From Bolinopsis microptera (Eukaryota > Ctenophora > Tentaculata > Lobata > Bolinopsidae): a stretch of 64,000 bases of DNA. Shown one piece after another: positions 22,721 to 46,821 of this stretch. The stretch lies in assembly GCF_026151205.1 (NCBI RefSeq), contig NC_087078.1:15765118-15829117 (forward strand), given 5' to 3'. The translations under genes and the position numbers were made by a program. The notes beneath the pieces are model-generated. The model saw nothing but the letters and a program-made list of their open reading frames with translations. It ran no database searches and was not told where the DNA came from. Each line of letters opens with the position of its first letter. Positions within the stretch are counted from its first letter, which is position 1.

Positions 22721-25700
22721 TTATCTCCTCACAACACCCTCACCACTATTGTCCTCAGGGGTTCTCCTGGATATTATATCAAAATAGCTTGGCTGTTGCT
22801 CACTCTCACTCATCAGAGGAGAGGACAGGTCGTCTGCTTTGTCTTCTTCAAACCCCTCATCTGATTCCTCTACTAAAAGAGAACTTCGTTCTGTTTCCGG
22901 TGGTATCCCCGCCTCTATAAGGGATCTAGACACTAACTCGTTCACATCAATCTGATCGTAACCTTTCTTGAAGCTGGACGTTGCAGATAAGAAGTCCTCT
23001 AGTTGTAAAGAGTTAGTGTTGTTTTGTGTCTCCGGCTTTCCGTCCGTATCTGCTACGCTTCCAGGTTCCTAAAAATAAATACTTGTAATCTTGTACAAAT
23101 TTGCAACTGCTATAAAGTATATGTAATGATCTGGGAAGATTAGATGGTACATATTTATAGATGATAAAAGGGTGGAGCTAAAAAATAACTTTACCCTTTA
23201 AAGATAAATCAAGGTCGATTTAGTCAATAGTCGTAGATAGCATTTTAAACTTACCACGACTGATGTGCTGAAATAGTCTGCTAAATCCTGAAGCAGATTT
23301 TTGCCAACTCTATCTAACCGATCTTCTTCAACATTTTCATTCGTAGCTTCAATCTTCACTTCTTTCTTTTCTGCAGGCATCTTTTCCTTCTTATCCTTCT
23401 TTCTCTTAGAAGTTTCCTTCTTGTTAGATGAATTGACATCTTTCAACGTAGCAATAGTGTGCACTTCGTGTTCCTCCCGGAAGCGAACTTTCTTGTTCTT
23501 GGATCTGGCTGTGTGGAAATAACTGAATCAATTTCAGTTTTAATTTAAGGTAAAATAACATAAGTCATAACCACCATTGCCTAAGTTATAACCACCAAAA
23601 GAAGGGAAACCAAGCTTTTGTGTACAGTGTAAAAAAAGCAGCGACAAATGTTAAGATTTTTAAGAACTTTTGGTTACAAATAACGTAATCTCACGCGAAT
23701 TAGGTGAGTCGGCATCCAGGGTAGCATTTACAGTTTTCTCTTCGTCATCTAGCTCATTATCAATGAAACCAGCGATCATTTTAGAAACGTTCTTGTTGTA
23801 CTCTATATCGATTTCCTCCTGATTAAAAAACAGCATTAAATCAGCAATTTGTAGTTCACACGTTACCAAACATTTTCGTCAGCGATAGTCTGATCAATAA
23901 CTATAAGTGACTTCGTAATGTTTAACTCATATGCTAACGAGCTGTGTTTTTATATGTATAATTTGTAAACTCACCAAACTGTCTATGGATGCATTATCAT
24001 CCGCACCATCAGCATCAGTCATCATCCTCTGCTCCAAATCTAAATTTTGGTCTGTCGTAATCTCTGTATCCTTGACATCACCTAATGGAGGAGTATCTTC
24101 ACTGTTAGTCACAAGCTCTGCGGGACCACCAGCTTGTTCTGATGTGATGTTGTTGAAAGATAGGTTTGGTTGAAGGGTCACAGTGAACCTACTAGTTGGT
24201 GGAGGGGGTTCTGGAGGTGTTGTAGTGCTTGGTAGAGACAAGCCAGGTACTGGATACAAGGCAGGAACTGGTGATGAGTCAGGTTCTTGACCAAATTTAG
24301 ATTGATCCAGTTTAGATGAAGATGGATGGTTAGAAGTGCTTGTGGGAAGCGTAGAGGTAAGATAATAATCTCTTTTTGGTTTGTTTGGAGCAGAATAGTG
24401 CCGGCCCCTTTCAAAGGAAGTTGATCTAACAGGTGGCTCCGGTTCTGTATCCAATTTTTTGTTGGATCTCAGATCATCCAAACTGGTCTTTGGAGGGGAG
24501 TGATCACCCTTGTCTTTAGCTCTTAACCCCCGATCGCTCCTCTTCGTTCCCGTTCCGGCTGATCGTTTGGGAATGGTCGACAAACAGCAATCGTCTTCTA
24601 GTGGTGCTGCAACACTGGCGTTGGAAACATTGGGAGAGGCGACAAACTTTGGTCGAGGAGGTTTGTTAGGAGGAATAGTGCTCACAGGAGAATCTTCCAC
24701 GATTGAGGTTGATGCACTGATAGATACGGCAGGTGGCGCTTCTTTGACGTGTGATTCAGATTTTAAAAGAGAACTCGAAGTAGGCTTGAGTAAAACGGGT
24801 GGAACGCGAAAAGATTCAACTTTACCAGGAACAGCTTTTCTACTTTGGGGCGTGGACACTATTTGGGTTTCAGGAGTAACACTAGCAGGTTTCAGCTGCA
24901 CCATCCGTTTTGGAACAAACTGCTGTGACAATACCTTTCTTTTAAGGTCACTAGTTTTCTTAATTAGCAGTTCCTTGGGAGGTGATGTCCGGTCGGTGGG
25001 TGCAATTAACTTATTTTTACGAGTGAGACTCGCAGATATTGCACCGATATTTCTCATCTCTTTCTCCTTGCTCAGAATCTCAGAGGTCCTTGAGAAGGGT
25101 TTCAAATGTCGAGCTCTGTCTTTCCATAGAACCTGTCGGTAGGAGTGTCATGAGGAATTTGTAAGAAAAGGAATTTGTAAGGAATTTGTAAGATACCTAA
25201 TCTAGCACAATTGCCAATTAAAACCAATAACGAGCTATTTGCCGAGCTAATTCGTGGAGCAGTTATACGTAAATGACAAAATCCTATTACAAATACAGAG
25301 AAGGGAACTTTGAATGAAAAACTCACTTGGGATAGGAATCTCCGAAAAGCACTCATATTTATTCTTGACATGTACATATCCATGGGTGTCACCTGATGAA
25401 AAATAGATCAGAAAATTTCTAACAAAACTAAGAGTCACGAATGACGAAAAGTGTTGACATTTGTAAGAACTTATGACATGAAACTGAAAATAGTTTGATA
25501 ATTATTCTTTGCTATAATTCCTAGCCTAATTGGCAATTGGCAGCTGTATTTGGTCTTGTAGCTGCGAGGTGGTGTGTCAGTAAATCATTCATATCTTGTA
25601 GCTGTCGGCTGACATCGTAGGACCTTTCCGCAGAATTTTGCCTGCATGTACGGATTTCAAGGCGGGGCATTCCGTTACTAAAGGGCAAGTTCTCTTTATG

Positions 25701-28700
25701 TAAGCACCTTAAGCGCCAAACCCTAGTAATATAAGACTAAGCTGATATTTTGCAAAGAGACGTAGCAACTGTGACATTGGTTAACTGTGACATTGGTTAA
25801 CTGTGACATTGGTTAACTGTTTACTGTGACATTGGTTAACTGTGACAGTGGTTAACTGTGACATTGGTTAACTGTGACATTGGTTAACTGTGACATTGGT
25901 TAACTGTGACATTGGTTAACTGTGACATTGGTTAACTGTGACATTGGTTAACTGTGACATTGATTAACTGTGACATTGGTTAACTGTGACATTGATTAAC
26001 TGTGACATTGGTTAACTGTGACATTGGTTAAAATAGCTTTATTGCTGGTAGCAGCATGGTCATAGGGTGAGTCTCTGATTGGCGCATCCCAGGACTGTTG
26101 AATAGCTGTAAGCTGCAATGTTGCTTAATACCTTCGTGCCAACATCTAGCAGTTGCTTGAGGGTGGCTAAAGAAACACCTATCTTAACGAGGGAGTGGTC
26201 ATGCTTGTAAGTCTCCAAGATTCCCGGGGAGAACCTAAACAAATCAACATTCTATACAGAAACATTCTAATCTAGATCAAATCTTTTCAAAAAGTCGAAA
26301 TTCATTTATCCATATCTCATGGTTTCGCTCCTCTAAGTCTAGTCTCAAAACAGAAGGGTAAATGTAAAAATCCCTACCAGTCAGTGATGATGAGGATGAT
26401 CTGCCCATCAGCCCAGTCAGTTGAGAGATTGTTAACTCTCTCATGATCTTCCTCGACCATCTTGTTCACTTGACTCTGAAATATTTGGAATATTATCCAA
26501 CGCCATCATTTTAACAGAAAGGCACATATCAGATTGACTCCAGTATTATCTAGTTCAAAAATATTTCGAAAGTTTTATCAACGAAAACATGTTCAAAACA
26601 TGTTCGACAATTCAATTCGACCATGTGCATATGCAAATCTTTAAAAGTAAAACTTACGATAATTTCAGTGAGCCCATTAACAACATTCTGTTTGAACTGC
26701 GGTATAACCAAATTCGTCGGTTTCATCTTGACCCGTGCCGGCGAGCCCAGCCCTAAAAAAGACTCCCTATCGCGAGTTTGGTATGGTGTTTCCGAAGAGG
26801 TCGTGTGTTTTTCCAACGCCACTTGCCTCGAATGTGTCTCTTTTCTTAGCTGAGACATTACTGAGGCAGCATTTTTAGGAATAATTTGTGGAGAAGCAGG
26901 AGGTGTTTTTGGCATAGTCGGGGGCGTTTTCTCGATTTGTGTCTGAGAGATGGCCCGACTTTTCGTGACCTGAGGAGGAGGGCCCCGCCCTAGGAAGAAC
27001 TCTAGTTTCTTCCCTGAAGATAGAGTAGGATCAGGTTGCAAATTTCTTTTGGGAGGTGCCTCTGGTTCGGTGATTATGCCAACAGGAACTTCTTCGACAG
27101 CACTTTCCTTAGGCAGCAAAGATTCAGCCTCTTTATCTTTAAGTTCAAGAACACCTTCGATTCGGGGATCTTCATTTTCAATAGTGGGGATAGGTTTAAA
27201 TATAGTTTCATCAGGAAGTTTTGACTGTGCTCTTATAGCAACAGGCTTCTGTATAAGGTGGCCTGGTTGCACAGTTTTAGGTTGCACCGATTGTTTGGTA
27301 TCTTTCTGTCGCTGTTCTGGTGAACTTAGAGGAATTACCATTTGGGGAGATCCTATTCTTTTAATTTGTCTCTCAGGAGTTAGGGGCCGATTTTCTACAA
27401 GAATAAGGGTTCGGGACTGTCTTTCTGACGTCAGAGTCGGCTTTTCTGGGGTCTCGGATGTCCTTTCTAGAGTTTGTAATCGTTTATCAGGAGTCAGTGA
27501 TCGTCTTCCAGGACTGTATGATCTTAATTCGGGGGTCAGCGGCCGTGACCGATTATTAGGCCAGTCCTGGGGGCTATGGACAGCTGCTATCTGCTGTTGG
27601 ATAGGTTCAATGCTGGACCTGGTTTGAAATAGATTCGATAAGGTTGGCTCAGGTTCCGGTTCCGGTTCAGGTCTAGGTGTTTCAGGTTTTTCAAGAGTGA
27701 CAGATTCACTGCTCCGGCGTCGAGTTTGTGCGGTGTCCACTACACTCAGAAGCCCTGCGATTTGCGAATTTCAATAATCTTATTATCCCAAAGATGAACA
27801 GTTTTCATTAACTTTGAATTCTAACAAACAAAATAAAAATGATTACGTTATTAATATTTTATTATTTATACCTGGCTGAGGTTGTGTGAACATATTCTTG
27901 CCACCGAAATGAGTCAGCAGAACCTTGGTAAACGCTAGACACAGTTTCTCGTTCCTGATTAGAATAAGGGACTGAGATTTGTGAAATAATGAATTGAAAC
28001 CTGATATAGACAACAAAATATGTTGGCTCAGATAACTAAAATTCAGAAATGAGTACTTGTACATCAATTTGGAAACAATAGAGAATTCGATAGTTGGACA
28101 TAAAATAAATGTCTAACCCTGATACAAGATCGCCAGCCACATCCATATTGATAAACCTACATCCTGCTGCCTTGAGGGCATCCAAACTTATTCTGATATT
28201 CTCGTATCTAGGAAAAGATAGCTGTTGGTGGAGAAGTTTAAAGTTTAAGTTTTGGTTTAAAGAGAAATACCATAGTCGTGGATAAAATCCGAAATATTTC
28301 GAGATATCACTCTCAGAGGTCGTTAAATAATCAGGTAAACAAGCATGACTGAATTCTAACTTGTGGAATGTCATTTTGGGATCCTCTCTGTAGGCAAATT
28401 TAGTCTGGGTAAGAGCTTGAGTCAGCTCGGGTAACAATTCTCCGTCACCCAGATCTGTAGTCAAATCAGTGACGATATACTCGGATCCGTTGTCTGACAG
28501 CTTGCACTCCACCTGGTAATAATATGGTGGTAATAACAATTTACAATGATCTCAGATAGTACATAATTTTAAAATTACTAGATTTATCGGCCGTAGGTTT
28601 TCCAGTTTCAAAAACGATTTAAGCACACCAATTCTTCGTGGAGTACACCTGTCAAAGAAGTTGTTGGCTCACCCATTCAGTGAAGGAGGCCTTTTGAGCA

Positions 28701-31700
28701 GACTGCCAGTTATCCGGTCCGTTTATCTCAGGTACTTCTTCTTCTTTTACCTTTAGAGCTGAAATCGAGCATTTGGTGGGGTGAGAAAATGATGTTGTGC
28801 AGTCGGAATACAATTTCGAATTTCAAAGGATGTTTAAGAATTTGTTGCATCAGTTCCTCTGCATTTTCAATACCTTGATAGTTTCGAGCGACATCAAACT
28901 TACCAAGTTGCCAGCAGGAGATGTTGGTCTCAACTCTCGGGTTGCAACACGGATATATTTTTTTGTTTTTTTACAAAAGTACAAAAATAACGTGACATAG
29001 GTAGGCTTCTAAGTTCTATTTCTATTAAGATCAATGCGCATTAGCGCATACGACGATGAACAAATATCTAGTATTTAATTATAGTCTGATCATCCTTTAA
29101 AAAGTCTTTGCCGTCTCTCAAAAGAAAAATTGTCTATCTGAGAGCGGCAGGACGGGTAGAATCTACTGTTCAACATCTGTTTATGACATGTTTTAGATCT
29201 GAGAGCTGTGGTTATCTGTTACTTGTGGCGCGACTTTCATCTTCACCAACATCTCCTCTCTGAAAGCTTTCATCCAGGCAATACAAAGAGTGTTGATCAC
29301 GGACTGAGTCAGAGGAAATCCGTAGGTTGAGGAGAAAACAAAGAAATCGTGCCCTACAGAGAACGGGGGATTTTCCAGTTTGGATCTTGCGGATAGCACT
29401 AGGATGTACGCAACCAGGACAGCCATGACGACTATATTCCACAGATTCATCAGAAGGGTGCAGAGCAGGAACTCTCGGTCAGGAAATTCCCGTTTCTTGA
29501 CTAATCTCAGGGTTGTCAAGACACCGGAGATCACACCGAGAATAAGGAATATCACCAGGACGGCCAGCTTACATTTATTTTGCGGCCCGTAGACGTTATC
29601 CTTAAACTCCTCATACGGTGTTATGATTTCCTGCGTGATTCTAAACTTCGCGAGAAGTGCTTTGTCGAGATCGAACACAAAGATGTGTACGGAGGACATG
29701 ACCAGGACGAAGAGAACCACAACGTAGGATGCAATGTAGAGGAAGGAAGGAGGTAAGGAGGAGTATTTGACGGTAACGTATCTAACAATACTCATTAGAA
29801 CTATCACAAACACTTCAATACTCGTGACAGCTAGCAAGACTGTGTTTACATGAGCAAGCCAACCCATATCTCCACTCTTTAGGTACAGGTCCATCTGGTG
29901 TGATGGTGCTAGCAGTTTAGGGATCAACACCAGAGGAAAGTAGACCAGCTTGATGTGATCCAGCAGGGAGACCAGGCAGAAGATGCTGTTGGAGGGGTTG
30001 GTACTTTGTCTGAAGCTGAAGAGAGAGGTGAGGGGGCTGACCAGGACCCCGATGAGGAAGTAGAGTATGAAGAGTATGGCGAAGAAATAGTTGAGGGCTG
30101 TGTCTGTTGGGGTGACGGGACGGATCTCAACTGGGTCCAGGACACCACTAAACATGATGCTTGCGTTGCCAAATATTGCCATGTCAGCTGATTTGAGTGC
30201 TGTTGGGAGGAGGAATATGAGAAAAAGTAAAACTTATTGGTCCGGTTAAAACATATTGAACAAAAAGTACAGGGTGGGCCAAAAGTCAGTACCCATACGT
30301 TGGCCTTAATAGCTCCGCCGTGTTTTATATTTGAGAGCTGTTGCTTTGCAGATGGCATACTGTACTTACTGGTTCGAGGATTCCGTCGTCAAAATTTGAA
30401 AATTCGAATATTTTAGACCACGCCCATTCAATATTAAAACACCTATATTGTTTTCTCTGAACATGCTGAACGCCTAATTTTTTCAGAGACGGTAGATTAT
30501 TAAATGTTGCATATGATCTGAAAACATGAGGCAAAACGGATTAGAAATGACGAAGTTATCAAGCATTTTCTGTATCTCGTTAACAATATTGACTGGGTGA
30601 TTATGTGACACCGTGACACGACACCTTAATTGGGCACCCTTAACAATTCCCATAATGTTTAACGGGGTAGTTAACGGGGGCACCTTATCACGTGATTCGG
30701 TAAACCAATCACCTGATCACACGTAATGAATAAACTCGTTATGCTTCATATCTCGGTCATCTGAGAAGCTACAGTTCTAATTCTTTCAGGACAAACGTAA
30801 TTCGAATGGCCAAACACAATTCAATAACATTTAGCTTGATCCGACTATCCAAACTATCAAATGAATGTGAAAATGAACCTCCATTTGAAAAAAATGAACG
30901 CGAATATTTTTCGAGTTGACAAATTCCTCGAACCAGTGGTGGTACTAAGTCATACCAGAAAGAAGTATTTAAATTGGGCACTCAGTGACTGAGCTATAAA
31001 GGCCAACGTATGGGTACTGACTTTTGGCCCACCCTGTATGTTCACGCTTATATCCTAACTCTCCCGATATGAGAAATACAATGCAATAATTTCCAGTGAC
31101 AGTCGCACGACTCAACATTCTTTAAAAAACGTATATTTGTCTATCTTTAACGTTGGAACCTAAAGTAGCAGAATCTCTCTCGGGTAAATTAACAGTGACA
31201 AATTTCGCTGGTCGGTACGTGTCAGCAACACATGCAAAACAATGAAGAAAATAAGATAGGTTGATTCTTAGTTTGAAGTGCATCAAATTAATGTGATATT
31301 TAAATTAATTAGATCAACTTTAGTGAATAATAGCAACTTTTCCTGACATAACCCAACTCATGTTGAATAACCTACCGACCTACGATCAAAAGAAAAGGTT
31401 ACAGATTACGATGTAACTCCTTGGCGTTGCAATTAGCTTCAATCAATAAACCATTTAGTGACAATGAATGAAAGGGCCAACACAAAATCACACAAACTAA
31501 AATCGACCACAAAGAATAGAAAGTGAGGTCATAACGATGAGACAATAAAATCCACCTCGATTTGGATACTGATCGGCTCATGAATATCATAATACCATTT
31601 TATTGTATGCTCTTTTATATAGTATAGCTGAATCCACCTATACTCTATAGTATGTTAAAGAACATACAATGTATTACTAAGCTTAATCTACATTAAACCC

Positions 31701-34700
31701 AACTCAGCTAAAGCCACAGCAATATACTAAATGACAGGTGCTGGGGCTGTATTCAATAGTTCAATGACAAACGGACAAACAGGACAACATACGTCAGGAG
31801 CGCAGGTGGTGTCCAGGTAAATATATACGGGTGATTTCGAGCTAGGCTCATGGTAATGAGCACCAATACGAGTCAGTCCTTGTCATCCTGACAATTACAG
31901 GAACAAATGAGTAATGACTATTGATGGGGCAGTATACTTTAATATAGTACCCAGGCAGCTGAGTAGTGAGAGCCAGACCACATTTAGTAGGCCAGACCTT
32001 TAACAGACCTCTTTCCTTAACCCTTACAAGTGTGCTAAATCAAGATACTTAATGTATAGTCTCACTCCCGACTACTATACTAGTACTATATAATATAGCA
32101 GTGCTGACTGCAGTAGTAGTCGGCCTAAGAAATAGAGCAAAAGTTAACAGCATTAAAACCTCCATCTACTCGTTTTTCAGGGGGTTTGCAGAAATGGTGG
32201 ATGATGAAACACCACTGACGAAACCGAAAGCAAATCTAATATACTTACTGCAAGACTAACTACTAGATACGTAAACACTTGCTGTATCAAATTGCCTTAA
32301 TCACCTGTGTTCAAGAATAGTTTGAGGCCGTTTAGCTCTAAGACATTCTAAATCATCACAACCCTACCACAAGCTTACGTGAAATTCTCACAGCTCACTT
32401 GTGGAATGTGAGGGCAAACAAGGCTCAACCACTTAAATAACCGCAAAACGTGGTGACTTTCCTGTTTAATGGAGGCATTATCTGCTTTGGCGGAGTATGG
32501 GTAACATTATCATTATGTATCATCACCATGGCAACGGTCGGGTAAACAATACGCAGAGCAATGAGATTTGCTGAATATTTATAGTGGGTGTTTAAGAGAT
32601 GGAGCAGGTGGTTAAACTTTCTTAAATCGTGCCCAGTAACCCTCCAGTCGTCAGTATTATAGGGCAGCTCATTTGTTTTCAAAATCATTTAACTGTGTAT
32701 TATCATGTAGGTAACCTTCGTGGATTATGAAGGACAACAGTAAGATTATCAAAATTATGTATGAAGCATTTTATTTGAAACGAAGATTAGTCCTTTAAAG
32801 AAAGAGTTTCCTTTTTACTAACCGTTTAAATCATCGGGAAAATGAAATAATATCAAATAATATCATCGAAATGGCAATGAACTGAGTATACCATTACCGA
32901 GATTTCTTTGAAAAATTGAGATCTTTAAGGATAATTTTGTCTCAAATTATTACCTGGAAGTCTTTTGTCTCTAGTATTCCATTGATGATTTTGAATGAGT
33001 TTACGAACCGTTGCCATCTAAATTGTATATCCATCAATAAGTTGATAGAAATATCAAATAATACAGAAGGTTTGGCACGATGTTATGTAAAACTAAAGGA
33101 ATCATTACACAGTACACCGTTGCACATGTTGTAAGCTACAAAATAGCATAGTTAGTAAGTAGGTAATTTGTAAAACATAAAATAACAAATGATATGAGGT
33201 ATATCCTACACCAGCAGGCACCCGCATCTTTAAAATGATGAAAACAATCCGTACAATCAAGCAAGTAGAAGCCATTTGTCAATTTCGGTTAAAACTCCGT
33301 TTCAGATAATAACTTCTTGATACTCAATCAAGTTGAATTATTAGAATGATAGATAATTTATAAAATATGGTTTAAATTGAAAGATGCAGTAACTGTATGG
33401 TATTGATAAAACAAGGTCTTCATCTTATCTGTTGTTCTAAGAATAATATTAAAACGTCGGCTGCACGACTTAAAGGGCCCCCTATTATTAGGGGTCTCAC
33501 GGTGATCAGATCATGTTACCAATTAGTGACGTATAATTAGTGATGTGATCCATCAGTAGAATTTAATTGACCTAGAAATGGGCTAGATATAGGATAGAGT
33601 TCACATGTCAACTCTGTACATCATAGTAATGACCTGCTGCTTTTTAACATACTCTTGAACAGAGGGCTTTAATCAATAAATCGGCCGGTGGTTTAATTGA
33701 TGGTTTTGTACTGCAAATGTGATATTAAAGTGACTCACTTTTTTTCCCTCTCTCACACGCTCTCTCACTCTCTCTCTTGACAGATGTTCAAATTTATGCT
33801 TAATAAATCCGGTTTTTGCTTACGAATTCGTTTATTTTTATTTCAAAATAATAATTTATTTTTCCTTTACAAAACCAGCCCATAGTTAAGTTCATTATAG
33901 TTATACTTTGCCGTATATCTTCCAGAATATATATTTAATACCTAAGATCTAGGTCGCGTATTTACATCTGATCGGTTCATGTACTCCCCTTGCATGCCTT
34001 CGACACGCAAGTCTCACGTCCCTTGATACGAGAACCACCCCCATTAGCAGGAGCTCCCGTCCCTTATGTGATCTACGAGTCGAGTAGACAAATCTTAAAG
34101 ATCATGTTTACTTCTAATGTATAGCTATGATGTACAGAGTTGACATGTGAACTCTATCCTACATCTAGCCCATTTCTAGGTCAATTAAATTCTACTGACG
34201 GATCACATCGCTAATTATACGTCACTAATTGGTGACATGATCTGATCACCGTGGGACCCCTAATAATAGGGGACCCTTTAAGTCGGCCTCCCGCAATGTC
34301 GGTTATCACAATGTATCGAAAAGTGGTTCCATAGTTCTAAAAAAGCAAAAAATCCTCAATCTTACTGTTTGAAAACGTCCAGGTCTAGGTTCCGGCCGGG
34401 ATTTTGATTTAATCCCAGTCCCGGTCCCGGCCGGGATGAGGCGTCTGCAGGCTTATCCCGGCCGGGATGATATTTGTGTCCCGGTAGACCTCTGGAGTAT
34501 ACAGTCACAAACATACAGACAAACAAATATCACTGACCTCCTTTTCTGAGCAGCTCGCTTCCTCTTCTACTTTGTTGTTCTGATGGTTGGATCTCCTCCT
34601 CTTCCTCATCTGACTCTTCTGTGGAGAAGAGAACTTTTAGATCGGCTATTTCGTGATATTCATCGGGTCAAAATAAAATGGGTTTACATGATAAGATGCT

Positions 34701-37700
34701 GTATTTTTTATGACGTAAGACAGTGTTTGTAGCACTGATAGTGATAATGTGCACGGTTTTCTCTTTTGCATATTATATTACCAAATTACTAATTAGGCCC
34801 AGGCTAGAAATAAACTCTCCCTGATGCCGCACTTTTAAAATGTGGTTACCATGGTAATCGAGATAATGCGCCTTCTAAATTAAAATATACGATGAATGAT
34901 TAAATAATTGTGGAAATAATTAATTCTAATTACAGCCGTTGAACACTCTCTAGATAAGTAGATAAGAGTCTAGAACGTCTAGTTACGTTGTTTCTTACCA
35001 GCATTGTCCAGTCCGATTAGTCTACAGGAAGTTCTAATGTACTTGTTGTACTTTATGTTGCTTGAACAGGTAATATAAAGTGTCAGGAATTACAATTTTA
35101 TCACAATGTCGTAATCGGACCCGTTGTACTTGTAACGTCATAACATAAAACTACCCGGCTGAGCTTGAGGAAATCTGCACTTGAACAATAGAGGTTAGCT
35201 TATACGAGAGTGGAAGTCGAAGATTTTCTGTACCCTGCACGCCATTGCAACTACGCGTCGCTCTTTCTACTTTTTGCATATCCTTGAGAGAATCGAGCAA
35301 TATAGATTAGCAAGCTAAGTAAGGATCATTGTTCTGTGCACAACTGTTTAATGAAAACAATTAAGGCACGTATTATACTACTTGGCATCTTATCAAGCGC
35401 ATGGGATTGTTATATGAAGGAAAGTGAGCGATTTTAGGGATGATGATTGATGATCAACCATGCTCTACAATCGACCATCACGTGACTTACTTAAACACGT
35501 TATCTATATGGGCCTGGGGACAGAGGGACTATTCATAGCCCTAGCCCTATACTCTGACCCCAACCCTAACCCAATCCTTAACTGAAGCATCTGCTAAAAC
35601 CCTAACCCTAAATTAGACCAACTTTGAACTTCCTTATATGATCATGTCACGTGATCGAAGCAGTTTTTCGCTAATAACTTGCAAGGGGAGCATTTTAATT
35701 TTATGTCATGTGGGGTGATTCGGAATCAGCGTTTAAAAATACATCGTTCTCTAATGGTTTCGACTGGGAGATCCCTTTTACTTTTAGAAAAATCTCGAAG
35801 TTCCAGTGTAAATGAACGTATCAGAACAGTTACTGTCCTTAATCGGATTGTGTTGTGATGATGAAATTTACTTTGTTGATTAACCTTTTTGTGCCACTGA
35901 GCGATTGTATTCGTTTTGATGTGTCATGGACTTGCTGGGGGATTAGTATCTTTTGATTTTTCAATTCTTTGGGGCTTGGAAATTAGAATGACATAAGTCA
36001 AAAACTGAAAAATATTTTTCTGTCGTTATATGTCAAAAGGTTCGGCGTTATAACCCGGGACTGGCCCCTTAAATGTATGTAACAATATTTGATGCAGGGT
36101 TGCTGGCATTCCTTTTATTATTTTTCCCTTGGGTCACACCAGTTACTGCTCATCGTCCGTTCATAGCCAGTGTTAATTTTAGTTATTAATCCATTTAATT
36201 TATTGGTTTGCACACTGTATCTCGACATACGCTGTATATCGTCACGCATGTTATATCGCCATGTAGTAGAATGTCTTACGGGTATTTTTTGCCCGATACA
36301 CTAGGGACCCCAGATACTCCTTATTTTTAACCGTAGAATTCATTAAAAGTAGTCCTGAGATGATTAGACTGAGTTTACCCGGTTAAAACCCAATTTTCGG
36401 TTCAAAAATAGGCTAAGAAGCCATTTAAACATTTTTTTGACCAAGTTAATTTCGTTGGCATATCAGCAAAATTTGCATAAAAGTGTATTAGAACTAACTG
36501 CAGGATTTCCCCGGTAAAAAATCTAATCGAATGGAGATATAGGGTTGTCGAGATACAGTGTATGTCTATATTCAGTGTGATTACCAATTTATTGACTCTA
36601 TTCTATTCATTTACGTATTATTATATCAAGAATTTATTACTATATCAAGAGTTTACTGTGTTTATCATTCAGGGTTTCTTACATGGTCATCTATCATATA
36701 ATCTAGAATTCATAAGATGGTTAGCTATTCATGGTTGACTACTAAAAGAGTAGAGTTTGAATTGTTTGATCCTGTACAGCATATTGAAAGTTGCTATTTA
36801 TGATGATGTCCATGACCAACTTGCTTCATCTCAGTCACCGAGTGAAAGGGTGGAGTCTGATTACCGCAATACTTAAAATCATATTATCTCGTTAAAAGAT
36901 TAGATTCGTGTTTGACAGAGGAAATTGAAGTATTATTGTAAAAGTGATATCTGATATTATCTTTAAGACTTTCAATTGTCTATCATAAGTATATCAAATA
37001 TATGGGGCAAGGAATTCATATATATATGAATTCCTTGCCCCATATATTTGATATACTTACATAACATAATTATGCTGCGGTACTACCTTGCAGAATTCAT
37101 TTATTTACAGCTCAACTTAATCTTGTAAGCAGACAACAAGAAGACACGGGTTTTTCATATAATCGAGCGGTTCTATTGATGTTCATCTTATCGTGAACCC
37201 GTGGACGCTGGGTTCGATATATAACATATTTAGTATTTACGCTGTAGAAAACGTGATTTTATTTATTTTTATCTCAATTACTTAATCTTGTTAGCAGATC
37301 GGGAAGACACGAGTTTTTCATTTATCGAGCGGTTCTATTAATATTCATCTTCGTGAACGCTGGATTCGATTCACAAAAAAACCCAATCGATGAGTTTCAT
37401 GAAGACTGCATGGATTGCCGTTTTAAGATTACCCAGAGTTCATGCCTTGAGATATATGAACGATATTTGCAAGAAAGGAATCTGTTTCCTCCCTTTTTTG
37501 TTACATCTGCATTTTAATTAATTTAATCAAAATTTGTCATACACCTTCAATAAATTTTAGCTACATCAACGTTTCAGAAAGAATAAGGTATCATGATAAA
37601 ATGTTTGGTGCTGTTACTCTTCCAAATAGCAGTACTGCTTTCACCTCTAAGTTCCGGAAACAAATACACAGTTGATGGAGCATACGAATATTCGATACCA

Positions 37701-40700
37701 TACGACTACTCGATCGGAGAATATTACGGAATAAGCGCACCTAAATGTGGAAAAGAAATCAAACAACTGGACGTATTAAAAGTGAAGAAGCCAAACCAGA
37801 TCCGTATTTCATACACAGGGGATCCCACAGAGATGGCTATAACCTGGACAACCAACTCTGTGAACCACTTCAATGTGGTGAACTACGGGATAATGGAAGC
37901 AGACCTGAACTACACATCCACTTCCATCTCTCATCAGTTTAAATGGCATTGGGACGAGGAAGAGGCTAAATGGATCTACATCAGTGGCTTCATACACGAG
38001 TGTTTGATGGTTAACTTGATGCCCGGCAGGATTCACTTTTACCAGGTTTGTGTTGACTATTATATAAGGGACCATAATTAGAAGGGAACCATAACTAATT
38101 AGGAACTATAACTAAATGGGCCAGACCATGGAGAATTTGTACAATCATTAATTAATAAGTAACATTTACAGTTACTCAGTATTCTACACCGTTTGTAATC
38201 AATACGTATTTCTACAGATATCAAGTAACGGTGAATCGTCTCAAATCCTGAAGTTTGTAGCCGCCCCTGAACCTGGGTCACGAGCTCCATTATCATTTCT
38301 ACACACCGGGGATGTAGGAACATTCGGGACCTCCGTCATGATCACCAAGAACATGATGAACAGACAGGAGAAGAAACAGTATCACGGAATCCTGCACTGT
38401 GGGGATGTTTCATATGCTAACAAGTTTAACAAGACAAGACCAAGGAGAGCTGCCCAGCATGTCTGGGACACTTGGGGCCAGATGGCGGAACCTATTGCCA
38501 GCAAGATGGCTTACATGGTTTCTCCGGGGAACCACGAAGTAGACGAGTTTGAGAGTGCGTTTGAAAATGGGACGATATATTCTAAGAGGTTCATCATGCC
38601 AGGCAATGAACATTACTTCTCGTTTGGAGTTGGGATGGTTCACTTTGTGTCAGTTTCCACAGACGAAAACATCGACCCGAGTTCAACGCAAGGAGTCTGG
38701 CTGGACAGAACTCTGGCTAAGATCAACAAACAAAGGAATCTTTGGCCATGGGTTGTGGTGTTCCAACACAGACCGATCTACAACTCAAACAAGAACCATG
38801 GTAATTGGAGCGGCTCTAATAATTACACTTACGATGGATATGATTGGGAGCTGCCCACATATGAGGGATGGCCTGATGATTACGAAGCTCTAATTTTAAA
38901 ACACAAAGTAGATCTGGTTCTTACAGGACACGTGCATCACTACGAACGAACCTGGCCTGTGAAAAACCGAGATGAGGTCACCAAATCTTACGAAAACGTG
39001 ACGTCACCAGTCCACATTACATGCGGACACGGAGGAAAGGGTCTTTATGCGGTTGTGTGGGATTCTAACGGCCGGAATACGTACGGACCACACCAACCAG
39101 CGTTTTCAGCAGCAAGGGACAACATGAACTGGGGGCACTGTGAGTTGGACTTTATAGATGAAAGGACAGTGAGACATACTATGTTTAGGATGGGTGAGAG
39201 TGAGGTTCCAACCGAGGATGTTCTTATAACCAAAGCTGCTGGGGGAGGTGGTGCAGCGAAGGTGGGATTCAGTTTGGGATTATTGATTGGGTGCTTTATA
39301 TTCTGGAGTTGAAGAAACTTGGTTGGGTTTTACCCACCAAATTGATATTTTAAATTTAATCTTTCTTCGTCAGTTTAGTTGCATTTTATGCAACAAAGTT
39401 TTAAGTTTCGAATGAATCGTGACCCCCTTGTTTATTTTATACCGTCTCGTGACTCTTGAATTTTAGTTTGATGTATGTAAACTGTAAGTGTTTATAATTT
39501 CTGATATTCGAGCTTTTCATTTAAAAAACAATTCCTTCGTATTATTGAGCCAGGGTGTGGACTGGCTGCACCTGGTTAAAACATTTCCGGATTTCCATTC
39601 CATTACGTCATAATGATACTGAAATATAATAAAATTATAGTAAAATATGTAATATAATATTGTTATTCTGTATAATTATAAATCTGACACATTTTTTTGA
39701 ATGGTTGAGCTGCGTCGCAGTTGTAGCGTTTTACTTTTCATATGGAATTGGACGATATTCACAAGAAAGGAATCTTTTTCCTTACTTTTTGTTACATCTC
39801 AATTTAATTACTGTAATCAAATTTTTGAAACACCTTTAATAATTTTCGGTGAATTGTGATTGAACATTTCACAAGGAATAACACATAATGATAAAATGTT
39901 TGGTGCTGTTACTCTTCCAAATAGCAGTACTGCTTTCACCTCTAAGTTCCGGAAACGAATACACAGTTGATGGGGCATACGAATATTCGATACCATATGA
40001 CTACTCGATCGGAGACTATTACGGAGTAAGCGCACCTGATTGTGGAAAAGATATCAAACAACTGGACGTATTAAAAGTGAAGAAGCCAAACCAGATCCGC
40101 CTCTCGTACACAGGGGATCCCACAGAGATGGCTATAACCTGGACAACCAACTCTGTGAACCACCTCAATGTGGTGAACTACGGGCTAATGGAAGCTGACC
40201 TGAACTACACATCCACTTCCATCTCTCATCAGTTTAAATGGCATTGGGACGAGGAAGAGGCTAAATGGGTCTACATCAGTGGCTTCATACACGAGTGTTT
40301 GATGGTTAACTTGATGCCCGGTAGGATTCACTTTTACCAGGTTTGCGTTGATTTTATTTTTAAGGGACCATAATTAGAAGGGAACCCTAACTAATAAGGA
40401 TTTATAACTAAGTGACCAGCATCAAGTGGACAATTTGTACAATCTTTAATTAATAATTATATAATAATTATTAATATAATAATTACCATTAACTTTAACA
40501 GTTATTTTAAACTGTTTGTACTTTGTAATCAATATTATGTACCTCTACAGATACTAAGTAACGGTGAATCGTCTCAAATCCTGAAGTTTGTAGCCGCCCC
40601 TGAACCTGGATCACGAGCTCCATTATCATTTCTACACACCGGGGATGTAGGAACATTCGGGACCTCCGTCATGATCACCAAGAACATGATGAACAGACAG

Positions 40701-43700
40701 GAGAAGAAACAGTATCACGGGATCCTACACTGTGGGGATGTTTCATATGCTAACAAGTTTAACAAGACAAGACCAAGGAGAGCTGCCCAGCATGTCTGAC
40801 ACACTTGGGGCCAGATGGCGGAACCTATTGCCAGCAAAATGGCTTACATGGTTTCTCCGGGGAACCACGAAGTAGATGTGTATGATAGTACGTTAGAAAA
40901 CGGGACGATATATTCTAAGAGGTTCATCATGCCAGGCAATGAACATTACTTCTCGTTTGGAGTTGGGATGGTTCACTTTGTGTCAGTTTCCACAGACGAA
41001 GACATCGACCCGAGTTCAACGCAAGGAGTCTGGCTGGACAGAACTCTGGCTAAGATCAACAAACAAAGGAATCTTTGGCCATGGGTTGTGGTGTTCCAAC
41101 ACAGACCGATCTACAACTCAAACACGAACCATGGTAATTGGAGCGGATCCAATAATCACACTAAAGAAGGTTATGAGAATCCCTCATACGGGGGATGGCC
41201 TGATGATTACGAAGCTCTAATTCTAAAACACAAAGTAGATCTGGTTCTTACAGGACACGTGCATCACTACGAACGATCCTGGCCTGTGAAAAACCGAGAC
41301 GAGGTCACCAAATCCTACGAAAACGTGACGTCACCAGTCCACATTACATGCGGACACGGAGGAAAGGGTCTTTATGCGGTTGTGTGGGACTCTGACGGCC
41401 GAAACACTTACAGACCACACCAACCAGCGTTTTCAGCAGCAAGGGACAACATGAACTGGGGGCACTGTGAGTTGGAGTTTATAGATGAAAGAACAGTGAG
41501 ACACACTATGTTTAGGATGGGTGAGAGTGAGGTTCCAACCGAGGATGTTCTTATAACCAAAGCTGCTGGGGGAGGTGGTGCAGCGAAGGTGGGTTTCAGT
41601 TTGGGATTATTGATTGGATGCTTTATATTCTGGAGTTGATTTGATTTGAAACTTTCATCAAATAATACAGAATAATACAACAAGGGAGCTTGAATAAAAT
41701 CAATGTCGACAAAGAATGTTCGGGAATCAAGCTGAGGAATGCTCGGACTGGTTAGGACAGGCACAAGTAAGCAGAATTTGACTGTACCATATGATTAAGG
41801 AATTAAGGAAACCAGTAACATCCATGTTAGAACACGTCATGTGCTATGGACTCTTACTCAAACTCACATGAAACTATGAATGGTTTAAGGTCTTTGCCAC
41901 AAAATTTATATTTTAAATTCAATTGTCAGGTTAATTGTATTTTATGCAACAGAATTTTAAGTTTCGAATGATCAATTTATTTTTAAATTATCAAGCTTAC
42001 CAAGCTTGTTAACAAATAGCGATGCTAGAGGCAAAGCTTGGTGAGCGGCAAATCCTGACCTCCTTGTAACCTTGTATGTTGTATACCGACGGGCACCATC
42101 GGTTTTGGCAGTTTGTGAGGTTGCATCTTATATTTTTTTAAGAAAAGAAAAAAAAATTTAATTTTTCTGTTTATGTTCTACTAAAATATTTTAATTACGG
42201 AATTATTTTTTTTATTTAATTACGGAATGTTTTGGGAAACAAAAATATTATTATTAGTTTTGATGTGTGTTTTTATTCGTATGCTTTTTAGAATATTTAT
42301 CTCAATTTTTAAATATAACCCGACAAAACAACAACATTAAAAAAAAAAAAAAAAAACAGTCCACTGACCAGAATCAACGTCAACATCATGTTTATTTTAT
42401 AGCGTCTCTTGACTATTGTCAATTTTAGTTTTGATGTGTGTAAACTGTAAGTGTTTATAATTTGTAATATTCGAGCTTTTCATTTAAAATACAATTCTTT
42501 CGTATTATTGAGCCAGGGTGTGGACTGGCTGCACCTGGTTAAAACATTTCCATTCCATTACATAATGATACTGAAATATAATTAAGTTACTATATATAGT
42601 AACAATATCATATTTCATATTTTACCTTATATATAAGGTAAAATATGAAATATGATATTGTTATTCTGTATAAAATTAAATCTTACATATTATTTTCTAT
42701 GGTTGAGCTGCGTCGCTGTTGTAGCGTTTTACTTTTCATATGGAATTGGACGATATTCACAAGAAAGGAATCTTTTTCCTTACTTTTTGTTACATCTCAA
42801 TTTAATTACTGTAATCAAATTTTTGAAACACCTTTAATAATTTTCGGTGAATTGTGAATGAACATTTCACAAGGAATAACACATCATGATAAAATGTTTG
42901 GTGCTGTTACTCTTCCAAATAGCAGTACTGCTTTCACCTCTAAGTTCCGGAAACGAATACACAGTTGATGGGGCATACGAATATTCGATACCATACGACT
43001 ACTCGATCGGAGACTATTACGGAGTAAGCGCACCTGATTGTGGAAAAGAAATCAAACAACTGGACGTATTAAAAGTGAAGAAGCCAAACCAGATCCGTAT
43101 TTCATACACAGGGGATCCCACAGAGATGGCTATAACTTGGACAACCAACTCTGTGAACCACTTCAATGTGGTGAACTACGGGATAATGGAAGCTGACCTG
43201 AACTACACATCCACTTCCATCTCTCATCAGTATAAATGGCATTGGGACGAGGAAGAGGCTAAATGGGTCTACATCAGTGGCTTCATACACGAGTGTTTGA
43301 TGGTTAACTTGATGCCCGGCAGGATTCACTTTTACCAGGTTTGCGATGATTTTAAGGGACCATAATTAGAAGGGAACCATAACTAATAAGGAATTATAAC
43401 TAAGTGACCAGCATCAAGTGGACAATTTGTACAATCTTTAATTAATAATTACCATTAACTTTAACAGTTATTTTAAACTGTTTGTACTTTGTAATCAATA
43501 TTATGTACCTCTACAGATACTAAGTAACGGTGAATCGTCTCAAATCCTGAAGTTTGTAGCCGCCCCTGAACCTGGATCACGAGCTCCATTATCATTTCTA
43601 CACACCGGGGATGTAGGAACATTCGGGACCTCCGTCATGATCACCAAGAACATGATGAACAGACAGGAGAAGAAACACTACCACGGGATCCTACACTGTG

Positions 43701-46700
43701 GGGATGTTTCATATGCTAACAAGTTTAACAAGACAAGACCAAAGTGGGCCGCTCAGCATGTCTGGGACACTTGGGGCCAGATGGCGGAACCTATTGCCAG
43801 CAAGATGGCTTACATGCTTTCTCCGGGGAACCACGAAGTAGATGTGTATGATAGTACGTTAGAAAACGGGACGATATATTCTAAAAGGTTCATCATGCCT
43901 GGCAATGAACATTACTACTCGTTTGGAGTTGGGATGGTTCACTTTGTGTCAGTTTCCACAGACGAAGACATCGACCCGAGTTCAACGCAAGGAGTCTGGC
44001 TGGACAGAACTCTGGCTAAGATCAACAAACAAAGGAATCTTTGGCCATGGGTTGTGGTGTTCCAACATAGACCGATCTACAACTCTAACATAAACCATGG
44101 TAATTGGAGCGGATCCAATAATTACACTCAAGAAGGTTATGAGATGCCCGCATACAAGGGATGGCCTGATGATTACGAAGCTCTAATTCTAAAACACAAA
44201 GTAGATCTGGTTCTTGCAGGACACGTACATCACTACGAACGATCCTGGCCTGTGAAAAACCGAGACTGAGGTCACCAAATCCTACGAAAACGTGACGTTA
44301 CCAATCCACATTACATGCGGACATGGAGGAAAGAGCCTTTATGCGGTTGTGTGGGACTCTGACGGCCGAAACACTTACAGACCACACCAACCAGCGTTTT
44401 CAGCAGCAAGGGACAACATGAACTGGGGGCACTGTGAGTTGGAGTTTATAGATGAAAGGACAGTGAGACACACTATGTTTAGGATGGGTGAGAGTGAGGT
44501 TCCAACCGAGGATGTTCTTATAACCAAAGCTGCTGGGGGAGGTGGTGCAGCGAAGGTGGGTTTCAGTTTGGGATTATTGATGGGGTGCTTTATATTCTGG
44601 AGTCGATTTGATTTGATTTGAAACTTTCATCAAATAATACAGAATAATACAACAAGGGAACTTGAATAAAATCAATGGCGACAAGGAATGTTCGGGAATC
44701 AGGCTGAGGAATGCTCGGACTGGTTAGGACAGGCACAAGTAAGCAGAATTTGACTGTACCATATGATTAGGGAAACCAGTAACATCCATGTTAGAACACA
44801 TGTGCTATGGACTCTTACTCTAATCCACATGAAACTATGAATGGTTTAAGGTCTTACCCACCAAATTTATATTTTAAATTCAAGTGTCAGGTTAATTGTA
44901 TTTTATGCAACAGAATTTTAAGTTTCGAATGATCAATTTATCTTTAAATTACCAAGCTTACCAAGCTTGTTAACAAATAGCGATGCTAGAGACAAAGCTT
45001 GGTGAGCGGCAAATCCTGACCTCCTTGTAACCTTGTATGTTGTATACCGACGGGCACCATCGGTTTTGGCAGTTTGTGATGTTGCAATTTGCATATTATA
45101 TTCTTAAAAGAAAAAAAAGAAAAAATTTTTAATTATACGGAATGTTTTGTGAAACAAAAATATTACTATTACTATTAGTTTTGATGTGTGTTTTTATTCG
45201 TATGCTTTTTAGAATATCAGTCTTTAAATATAACGGATAACCGGTCCGACAAAAAAAACAACATTAAAAAGAACATGAAAGACAAACAGTCCACTGACCA
45301 GAATCAACGTCAACATCATGACAAGTGTTGGCTGGTGTCTCAGCGCACAAAGAGGGTATCCGGACTCCTTCGAACAACTTGCTCTTCGACTTCACTGTGG
45401 GGGCAGATTAATAAGCGTTATAACAAACAACCTTCAGATTCTTCTGTGCAGCTTCAGAAAAAAACGTCCAGCCATTTCAAAATTTAAGATCGTACTGGAC
45501 AACTTTATCCAAACTTAAATTTAACGTATCCCGAAACTGATTAATCAATCATCACTATTATATTACGTACCGGATGTTTTAAGCGTATATGAGTCGTCTA
45601 AAGGGATCTTAACGTTCAGAATCTTCGCCACCTCTCGCTTTTCAAGGGTTCCACTTCGGTCTTCATCGTACCTAAAGAACCAAATATCATCATTTTCATC
45701 AAGTCATTCATTGAAGTTCCGATCCCTTCAGAAATGGGACCTCACAGACATGTCAACGTCATGACGTCATTTGTCTAAAGCACAGTACATTTTACAGAGT
45801 ATGACATCAAGCTCTAGCAGCTAGTGCCAGGATCTGCTGCTCTTTGTGAGCGTATTTTTCATGCTAATGATGTGGGGGACACTGTCCAGTGTCCACCCCT
45901 CGCGCCGCGCGCTTCATGTTTCCCTCGGAGGATATGCTAATCACCGTCACGAGAATATTGTTCATTCAGTTGTAGATGAGACCACGAATATTAATGGCAC
46001 ACAGAACACAGGTTACTTGTAGTTGTACCACTCATCTTCTCAACGATTAGCATATATTTCAATATTTATTAGACATTCTGGCCATATAACCAGGTAACAC
46101 GTACGTCTAGATCAACTGTCTAGTGCAAATTGATGATATATAAATAGCTGTACTGCCTGGATCATAAATACACAGGAGTATATAATTATATAGAGGCTGC
46201 AGAGAGCCGCGATGCATTATGCAAATCTGAGATCCTATCAATCATCGATGGAATAATATTAACAAGCGCAACAGGACTGGGGACAACATTTGCAATCTAC
46301 ATCAGATATTCATATAATTGAACTTATAACATGACTTCAAAAATGTGGAGCATTACTTTTGAATAAGTTTGGCCACATCCTGAGAATACTTGAGCATTTC
46401 CTTTTCACTTAGCCCCTCCTTTGCAGACTTTTTAGTTTTCTCAATCCTCAACAGCAAGTCCTTCATGAATTTGTTCATCTCAGAGTACTGTAGCTTACCG
46501 TTCTTATCAATGTCGTACTGAGCAAACACCTAGCGGGAGGGTTTCAGTGAAATTTACGAACATGAGTCAAACAACCTGCAACCATGAACAATAATCTAGC
46601 GCCAAGAATGCTGAATGAAAGTCGAGTTTTAAAATTGCTGCAGCATCACTACAATAGATATATCGTGAGTGATCCTATTCCTACTTGGGGAAAATTATAA

Positions 46701-46821
46701 AGCGGGGTTAACTCACTTCTTCAAACTCATCATAAGACAGTGATTTCCTCTTTTTCCTAGCATCCCTTATTTTCTTCTTGACTTGGGCCTTGTCGGTCAA
46801 GTCAGGGGTCTCTTTCCCCAT
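22721..46821 (-). CDS. EF-hand / split tandem calponin-homology protein (16 exons, 1381 aa model)
   Basis: Exons in transcript order: 46717-46821, 46357-46529, 45571-45671, 34538-34618, 28673-28758, 28361-28512, 28118-28207, 27872-27954, 26658-27754, 26378-26475, 26132-26234, 25327-25392, 23975-25132, 23668-23818, 23255-23508, 22721-23068. All borders are GT-AG and all phases agree (4146 nt). EF-hand loops lie at 41-52 (DIDKNGKLQYSE) and 95-106 (DEDRSGTLEKRE), both canonical. An acidic linker leads to CH1 at about 171-285 (actinin-type W...FTEW...TDLTTDLGDGELL). Residues 291-645 are a disordered insert rich in Pro, TPE and SP sites. CH2 is about 645-748 (NNLSTDWADGQ..., ending VTPMDMYMS...FLSQ as in filamin). 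A disordered tail follows, with a Lys-rich stretch and KVRF at 1188-1191. Expected role: calcium-regulated actin binding (family knowledge plus inference). The weakest joins are the 11 kb intron 3 and the GTTCTT donor of exon 14. It could instead be two genes, split between exons 3 and 4. Confidence 0.68.
25769..26032. repeat. 16-bp minisatellite in an intron of the CH gene
   Basis: About 16 near-identical copies of TTAACTGTGACATTGG, with a few G-to-A changes and one irregular unit (TTAACTGTTTACTGTG). They lie in the intron between the two exons that encode the middle and end of CH2. No coding potential is evident. Confidence 0.95.
29193..30182 (-). CDS. divergent seven-transmembrane receptor (329 aa, single exon)
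   Basis: One frame with about seven hydrophobic helices, at roughly residues 30-55, 65-90, 105-135, 145-170, 205-228, 240-265 and 280-305, plus a short C-terminal tail. IVRYVTVKYS at the end of helix 3 resembles the rhodopsin-family DRYxxV box with Asp replaced by Val. LVSLLD in helix 2 keeps the conserved Asp. The helix 7 NPxxY motif is absent (NTLCIAW). A possible N-glycosylation site is at Asn6. It is most likely a divergent class A-like GPCR at the plasma membrane; ligand unknown. It lies inside the 5.8 kb intron 4 of the CH gene on the same strand, 87 bp downstream of a mariner-type MITE. An upstream 5' exon is possible. Confidence 0.7.
   Translation of the reverse strand: MAIFGNASIMFSGVLDPVEIRPVTPTDTALNYFFAILFILYFLIGVLVSPLTSLFSFRQSTNPSNSIFCLVSLLDHIKLVYFPLVLIPKLLAPSHQMDLYLKSGDMGWLAHVNTVLLAVTSIEVFVIVLMSIVRYVTVKYSSLPPSFLYIASYVVVLFVLVMSSVHIFVFDLDKALLAKFRITQEIITPYEEFKDNVYGPQNKCKLAVLVIFLILGVISGVLTTLRLVKKREFPDREFLLCTLLMNLWNIVVMAVLVAYILVLSARSKLENPPFSVGHDFFVFSSTYGFPLTQSVINTLCIAWMKAFREEMLVKMKVAPQVTDNHSSQI
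30270..31036. mobile_element. non-autonomous Tc1/mariner-like element with TA duplication
   Basis: Terminal inverted repeats begin CAGGGTGGGCCAAAAGTCAG and extend about 45 bp with few mismatches to the mirrored end at 31036. The element is flanked by TA on both sides (30268-30269, 31037-31038), the target duplication of the Tc1/mariner superfamily. A second inverted repeat (ACTGGTTCGAGGA / TCCTCGAACCAGT) lies inside. At 767 bp it has no intact transposase. Confidence 0.85.
33466..34285. mobile_element. 820-bp foldback element with long TIRs
   Basis: Arms of about 165 bp (33466-33632 and 34118-34285) are reverse complements with few differences. They begin CGACTTAAAGGG then CCCCTATTATTAGGGG and continue through GGGCTAGAT and AGAGTT. 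About 485 bp lie between, including a CT-rich microsatellite (about 33742-33778). No transposase frame is seen. It lies in intron 4 of the CH gene. Confidence 0.85.
35540..35745 (+). repeat. dispersed repeat, copy B, with telomere-like words
   Basis: Contains CCCCAACCCTAACCCAATCC and ACCCTAACCCTAAA, then AATTTTATGTCATG and GGTGATTCGGAATCAGCG. It matches the minus strand of 19490-19830 block by block. It lies in intron 3 of the CH gene. Confidence 0.6.
36986..37059. repeat. perfect 74-bp palindrome
   Basis: The two 37-base arms are exact reverse complements with no spacer. The centre lies between 37022 and 37023 in an alternating AT core flanked by GGAATTC/GAATTCC. It sits about 530 bp before the first phosphatase start codon. 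Palindromes this long are unstable in many hosts, so either they are recent or the assembly folded here. Confidence 0.9.
37593..39312 (+). CDS. purple acid phosphatase, copy 1, intact (2 exons, 515 aa)
   Basis: Exons 37593-38045 and 38218-39312 join at phase 0. Residues 1-22 are a signal peptide. All five metal-binding blocks of the purple acid phosphatase family are present: GDVG (182-185), GDVSY (213-217), GNHE (255-258), QHRP (His336) and GHVHHYER (389-396). This predicts a dinuclear-metal phosphomonoesterase. The C-terminus is a hydrophobic stretch preceded by Gly/Ala (GGGGAAKVGFSLGLLIG), fitting a GPI-anchor signal, so a cell-surface enzyme is likely. Several NxS/T sites support secretion. 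It is one of three tandem copies, all antisense inside intron 3 of the CH gene. It is the oldest of the three by flanking sequence: copies 2 and 3 share more of their 3' flanks with each other. Confidence 0.92.
39888..41639 (+). pseudogene. purple acid phosphatase, copy 2, in-frame stop
   Basis: Exons 39888-40340 and 40551-41639, same structure and phase as copy 1. The codon that is Trp (TGG) in copies 1 and 3 within HVWDTWG is TGA at 40797-40799, which would end the protein after 233 residues. GDVG and GDVSY are kept but GNHE, QHRP and GHVHHYER are lost. The frame downstream remains fully open to the usual C-terminus, with mostly conservative changes. The stop is therefore recent, a polymorphism, or a sequence error. 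Without that one codon it would be an ordinary 513-residue enzyme. Confidence 0.8.
42600..42663. repeat. perfect 64-bp palindrome upstream of phosphatase copy 3
   Basis: Exact 32-base arms with no spacer, centre at 42631/42632 (TTATA|TATAA). Part of the right arm (ATATTGTTATTCTGTATAA at its edge) matches the normal upstream sequence of copy 2 near 39655-39676. The left arm therefore looks like a newly made inverted copy of flanking DNA. Confidence 0.9.
42886..44621 (+). pseudogene. purple acid phosphatase, copy 3, one-base frameshift
   Basis: Exon 42886-43338 and a second exon starting at 43517. Compared with copies 1 and 2, there is one extra T at about 44267 (CGAGACTGAGG versus CGAGACGAGG), giving TGA at 44267-44269 after residue 401. 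All five metal-ligand blocks up to GHVHHYER are before the break. What is lost is the last 110 or so residues, including the GPI-type hydrophobic tail. The original frame continues open afterwards to 44621, where the usual stop is replaced by Arg and five more codons follow. It could be a pseudogene, a sequencing error, or a truncated form without a membrane anchor. Confidence 0.8.

Follow-up and report, generated by a model that had tools for sequence, protein, structure and literature searches.

In ordinary tandem CH proteins the second CH domain (CH2) folds back onto the first (CH1) across a short linker, and nesprin and calmin carry an N-terminal CH pair whose linker is longer than usual. 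Secretagogin and calbindin, which bind calcium, have six EF-hands. EF-hands and CH domains come together in plastin, where, according to one account (PMC10070769), two N-terminal EF-hands and a linker precede the CH domains, and a headpiece of two EF-hands and a switch helix regulates actin bundling. Here we describe a locus of the ctenophore Bolinopsis microptera in which 16 minus-strand exons (E1–E16) encode a pair of EF-hands and two CH domains that a long disordered insert keeps apart. The window, the whole stretch of DNA that was analysed, comprises 64,000 nt (GCF_026151205.1, contig NC_087078.1, positions 15,765,118 to 15,829,117). The protein with the split CH pair is real and solid, whichever gene number holds, and is modestly novel. 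As to that number, we lean slightly towards two adjacent minus-strand genes, E1–E3 and E4–E16.

The exon chain and the split CH pair

The 16 exons are bounded by AG and GT and run from 46821 to 22721, and all of their phases agree, yielding the single open frame that had been described in the original prediction. On recount this frame has 1,373 codons with the stop (1,372 residues in a fused model) instead of 1382, a difference that presumably reflects other splice choices. Introns between E5 and E16 measure 117–739 nt; introns 3 (10,952 nt) and 4 (5,779 nt) are the only two of the 15 to exceed 739 nt. The exons, all on the minus strand, are as follows.

46717..46821, minus: E1, start exon with the N-terminal part before EF-hand 1 (MGKETPDLTDKAQ...DEFEE), phase-0 donor; from the exon chain and a related start exon in a gene on contig C5
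46357..46529, minus: E2, EF-hand 1, loop residues 41-52; from the exon chain and PDB and Pfam matches; also on contig C179
45571..45671, minus: E3, EF-hand 2, loop residues 95-106, donor GTACGT at 2.9 bits; from the exon chain and splice scoring
45563..45570, minus: E3 read-through, GT ACG TAA, giving ...KTSGT-stop; could be where an EF-hand protein of 128 residues naturally ends
34538..34618, minus: E4 in a fused model, acidic linker exon, phase 1/1, ESDEEEEEIQPSEQQSRRGSELLRKG
34538..34618, minus: E4 in a two-gene model, first coding exon of the CH gene, ATG 34609-34607, MRKRRRSNHQNNKVEEEASCSEKE, phase-0 end
28673..28758, minus: E5, start of CH1; acceptor in a fused model 28758 (phase 1, -3.9 bits), in a two-gene model 28750 (phase 0, 2.5 bits)
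28361..28512, minus: E6, CH1
28118..28207, minus: E7, CH1
27872..27954, minus: E8, end of CH1
26658..27754, minus: E9, Pro/Ser/Thr-rich disordered insert between CH1 and CH2, then the first part of CH2
26378..26475, minus: E10, CH2
26132..26234, minus: E11, CH2
25327..25392, minus: E12, end of CH2
23975..25132, minus: E13, disordered tail; no Pfam family at E <= 0.01 in its open reading frame (ORF)
23695..23818, minus: E14, disordered tail
23255..23508, minus: E15, tail with KKVRF (PP1-docking-like) at residue 1178
22721..23068, minus: E16, tail end and stop TAA

E5–E16 form a convincing gene. The order CH1, disordered insert, CH2, disordered tail, proposed earlier, is well supported by domain matches and by the coding character of the long exons. 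Judged from sequence, the presence of CH1 is certain: its Pfam CH score is 59.4 bits (cut-off 26) and its best PDB match has an E of 5.2e-14, with a spectrin/plakin-type character (alpha-actinin-like protein 1 up to 55 bits; MACF1 and plectin 46). CH2 is far weaker, at 22 bits under the same cut-off, and when queried alone its best PDB match reaches only E 0.84. Removing the insert carries the alignment on from CH1 into CH2 for 43 of the 47 PDB sequences matched at E <= 0.01; the plectin match grows from 46 to 59 bits as it extends into CH2. Relatives of CH2 outside the window are 23–33% identical, among four matches listed. Both halves of a "filamin/actinin-type" module had been claimed; CH1 holds strongly and CH2 weakly, and the filamin part fails, since the pair resembles plectin and alpha-actinin-like proteins more than it does filamin.

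The Pfam CH matches occupy residues 175–279 and 659–731. Between them lie 379 residues, nearly all in E9, where a tandem CH pair has a short linker; allowing for domain ends, about 350 of these form the insert, all in one exon, and the disordered tail adds some 627. E9 and E13 are coding, because their stop-free length is improbable (chance 1e-8 and 1.7e-9, respectively) and their GC content of about 0.46 stands above the 0.22–0.36 of nine short introns measured. The same odds and GC content rule out a retained intron in place of a true disordered exon, and the two very long disordered regions first proposed are borne out. Insert and tail have a low-complexity, disorder-type composition (proline 14% in the insert and 9% over the whole tail). 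Pfam returned no family for E9 or E13 and, for E14–E16, two matches only, both below cut-off. The insert contains 14 S/T-P sites against a mean of 9.6 after shuffling, a slight enrichment that 0.07 of shuffles reach. The KKVRF of E15 occurs 0.014 times per shuffled protein under a strict pattern that was chosen after seeing it, and the loose RVxF pattern is not significant in the model protein (0.25 of shuffles have as many). KKVRF may resemble GADD34-type motifs; it had no match in PDB.

The EF-hand exons and the number of genes

The two EF-hand loops are canonical, as predicted (residues 41-52, DIDKNGKLQYSE; residues 95-106, DEDRSGTLEKRE). Searched against PDB, the EF pair found secretagogin and calbindin EF pairs best, at 9.7e-14 and 8.6e-9. 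A gene on contig C5 (G000:C5:12327042 onward; ATG exon 12327042-12327128) shares with E1–E3 a related start exon, the position of the phase-0 intron that follows it, and a matching EF pair. That pair in turn finds secretagogin-type structures (1.9e-32 to 3e-24) and calbindin (2.4e-26) and, judged by eye, the gene extends into further EF-like exons. The shared start exon, intron and EF pair argue that E1–E3 descend from the 5′ part of such an ordinary calcium-binding-protein gene. When exons of the paralogues were used as queries on the window, nothing better than E 0.3 appeared outside E2 and E3. In NCBIfam the EF pair also hits a bacterial EF-hand family at 32 bits (cut-off 120), a likeness set aside as common to EF-hands in general.

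Both E1–E3 and E4–E16 can be read to completion. Past its donor E3 ends immediately (KTSGT-TAA), giving a complete 128-residue protein with two EF-hands. E4 contains an in-frame ATG 9 nt past an acceptor scoring 7.2, and the frame ends in phase 0 and fits the E5 acceptor at 28750, with the product MRKRRRSNHQNNKVEEEASCSEKE-VKEEEVPEINGPDNWQ. That acceptor scores 2.5 bits versus -3.9 for 28758, which a fusion requires; in leave-one-out scoring the 13 training acceptors ranged from -2.0 to 11.4 and the 13 training donors from 2.4 to 8.4, so that 28758 falls below its range and the E3 donor (2.9 bits) lies within its own, close to the bottom. Given the two complete readings, two genes need no unseen exon. 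The original prediction had named a separate end of E1–E3 and a separate start at 34618 as what would tell against it, and the same DNA offers exactly such a reading. Its E3-E4-E5 junctions are in phase but not unique, and the fusion of EF-hands to the CH pair, with its agreeing phases, is only a possibility, so calcium gating of an actin-binding scaffold is conjecture. The E3–E4 and E4–E5 intervals hold other genes:

37587..44269, plus: three tandem purple-acid-phosphatase copies between E3 and E4; from Pfam and repeat comparison
29196..30182, minus: single-exon ORF of 329 residues resembling a seven-transmembrane (7TM) receptor, between E4 and E5; receptor reading by eye

The three phosphatase copies in the E3–E4 gap are in line with two genes. 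We rate two genes slightly better than even; this grading, like that given to the fusion below, is a judgement and not a computed likelihood.

On the two-gene reading, gene 1 (E1–E3, 46821-45563) would encode the 128-residue protein, a shortened calbindin/secretagogin-like relative with one canonical EF pair, ending ...KTSGT-stop. Gene 2 (E4–E16, 34618-22721) would encode an actin-binding-type protein starting at ATG 34609 (MRKRRRSNHQNNKVEEEASCSEKE-VKEEEVPEINGPDNWQ...), with trans-splicing at the immediately preceding AG as a possible source of the cap; in order, the protein would have CH1, the disordered insert of about 350 residues, CH2 and a disordered tail of about 627 residues. It may bind F-actin mainly through CH1. 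With CH2 at the end of a tether of about 350 residues, the closed CH1-CH2 state should be weak: the insert would uncouple CH2 from CH1 and weaken autoinhibition, and its phosphorylation could tune the closed state. Insert and tail, with their S/T-P sites, proline-rich stretches and KKVRF, may thus act as a phosphorylation-tuned scaffold. In the ctenophore Hormiphora, a genome study puts trans-spliced leaders on 56% of Iso-Seq reads (PMC8527503), so a first coding exon beginning at an AG would be ordinary.

Several observations weigh against two genes. The Hormiphora leader motif is not enriched in the Bolinopsis genome (59 matches, 36 forward and 23 reverse, versus 46 for a control), and its short form matches the window once, as it does in 25 of 100 shuffles; for want of such enrichment, trans-splicing at this locus is assumed. 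The E4 ATG has C at -3, a poor context by the start-context rule for that position, and an open ATG with the right phase arises by chance in 60 of the 442 AG..GT stretches of 81 nt in the window (14%). Codon scores prefer the fusion frame of E4 to the ATG frame, at 13.7 versus 5.9 bits, or 10.9 versus 5.0 when codon usage is taken from four other ORFs; the advantage shrinks when synonymous codons alone are scored (3.9 versus 2.3). When splice sites and codons are combined, E4 is the sole phase-1/1 candidate within 6 bits in the 16.8 kb from 45560 to 28765. E3 is also the best upstream partner for E4, ahead of all those lying between the two exons (18.7 versus <= 17.0), in a ranking that favours E3 in that its acceptor and codons belonged to the training set. 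Poly(A) signals 3′ of 45563 and of 22721 were uninformative.

A single fused 24-kb gene is the main rival, which we put somewhat short of even. It would encode a calbindin-type EF pair, a short acidic linker, CH1, the insert, CH2 and the tail, with the phosphatases and receptor nested in introns 3 and 4; by analogy with the plastin headpiece, calcium binding to the EF pair could alter the linker before CH1 and hence actin binding. Besides the agreement of phase at every junction, its merits include E5's own frame, which has no ATG, and the score of E4 in the fusion frame (26.8 bits). No candidate equals that score downstream on the minus strand (22.5 kb), nor on the plus strand once the gene and the phosphatase cluster are set aside (49.6 kb). 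Upstream on the minus strand, 17 kb contain 19 candidates as good, and the 8 listed adjoin long ORFs, at 50.6-51.5 kb and 60.5-60.8 kb. On splice sites alone E4 is only rank 2 of 63, and on the plus strand of the stretch searched around E4, phosphatase genes included, 12 of 73 candidates equal it. The fusion moreover relies on the model's weakest acceptor (E5, 28758) together with the weak E3 donor, demands an 11-kb intron where the others, intron 4 aside, are <= 739 nt, and leaves the immediate TAA after E3 and the in-frame ATG of E4 as coincidences. The size of intron 3 is partly accounted for by tandem duplication of the phosphatase unit, which makes up about 5.3 kb of it (copy spacings 2,333 and 2,966). 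In Hormiphora, according to PMC8527503, introns of 1,654 host genes enclose 2,357 nested genes, many of them in the host's own orientation; with nesting so common, the intervening phosphatases and receptor do not decide the gene number.

An assembly join between E3 and E4 is made unlikely by contig C179 (G000:C179:1-16228), an insertion-rich duplicate of parts of window 33661-46720 on which E2, E3 and E4 keep their order and strand. It looks like an uncorrected haplotig remaining in the assembly and, as a copy of the same locus, carries no evolutionary information. We give little weight to a mixed account in which a short EF-hand mRNA, arising by intron retention or early polyadenylation at E3, exists beside a long fused mRNA, or in which E4 is part of neither gene as modelled; the sequence leaves both readings open and the E3 donor overlaps the stop, but no feature of the DNA demands such an account.

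The genome (264.65 Mb, 232 contigs) was also scanned for a second locus with EF-hands and CH domains. The scans gave 40 CH and 141 EF-hand_7 matches, 150 of 491 EF candidates being scored, and the window's own CH and EF exons are absent from these lists because introns split them. When all 40 CH positions were compared with 71 of the 141 EF positions, clusters mostly being represented by a single member, the nearest CH-EF pair was 96 kb apart, a negative result of low power, since introns split such exons. Among the literature records listed, at the level of titles and the starts of abstracts, there was no mention of an EF-hand and CH combination in ctenophores or of a long CH1-CH2 insert, which is no proof of absence.

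Neighbouring genes and other features

The three phosphatase copies are 93-97% alike in some 300-nt stretches and 66-82% in others. The first two continue in frame near 44269, where the third loses it and would be a pseudogene or an assembly error. The long ORFs of intron 3 are purple acid phosphatases, and transposon exons were rejected as their explanation. The receptor-like ORF has six hydrophobic segments over threshold and no match in Pfam or NCBIfam; it has 31 other matches in the genome, the long ones 26-32% identical, with a cluster at C11:1.64-1.69 Mb.

Just downstream of E4 lies a 161-nt inverted repeat (33466-33626 and 34125-34285; 96% complementary, 498 nt apart), possibly a MITE-like element. 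The intron between E11 and E12 contains a 16-bp tandem repeat of the GTCACAGTTAACCAAT type at 25716-26079, with 17 overlapping 101-nt copies in register, and a 500-codon minus-strand ORF at 59468-60970 ends in a C-terminal RING finger (zf-RING_2, 55 bits).

Elsewhere in the genome (G000), EF-hand ORFs form four head-to-tail arrays, at C5:17013039-17026356, C13:11082760-11094295, C1:21999721-22006881 and C3:3415799-3427318, with at least 15, 11, 8 and 7 ORFs, respectively, spaced mostly about 940-1030 bp apart. One array ORF was tested and proves to be a mnemiopsin/berovin-type photoprotein (151 of 172 residues identical to mnemiopsin 1). If the other array ORFs are alike, this is a large photoprotein gene expansion.

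Comparison with known calcium- and actin-binding families

The EF pair of E1–E3 is related in sequence to those of secretagogin and calbindin, of which the C5 paralogue is a clear relative; it differs in having two EF-hands, not six. In a fused gene, and only there, the order of two N-terminal EF-hands, a short linker and CH1-CH2 would recall plastin/fimbrin. Plastin, in contrast, has four CH domains; here there are two, with none further in E9, E13 or E14–E16, which excludes membership of that family. CH1 matches T-fimbrin weakly (25 bits versus 55 for the alpha-actinin-like protein), and plastin is absent from the 60 EF-pair matches listed out of 266. We consider it possible, if a little less so than not, that this is a ctenophore-specific fusion in which a calbindin-type EF pair was placed before CH1, the insert of about 350 residues and CH2 to give a calcium-controlled actin scaffold, a plastin front-end layout assembled from unrelated EF and CH stock, intron 3 later being filled by a growing phosphatase array. 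If true, plastin's layout was arrived at independently near the base of the animals. On the preferred two-gene reading, the locus clearly illustrates how interleaved genes and possible trans-splicing in ctenophores can make two genes look like one.

Membership of other families was rejected on their remaining domains. In the parts scanned with Pfam there were no spectrin, plakin or filamin repeats: E9, E13 and E14–E16 lack the spectrin repeats and C-terminal calmodulin-like domain of alpha-actinin, and the tail after the CH pair lacks filamin Ig repeats. Nesprin and calmin differ in that the model protein has no transmembrane segment (maximum 19-residue hydropathy 1.06). The closest likeness is to the tandem CH domains of plectin/MACF1, alpha-actinin-like proteins and dystrophin/utrophin, which match CH1 and, with the insert removed, run on into CH2. 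The Bolinopsis protein departs from these in that about 350 disordered residues split a strong CH1 from a weak CH2. Contact between the two is possible only across a long flexible tether, and the split pair thus provides a natural test of whether contact between CH1 and CH2 governs affinity for actin.

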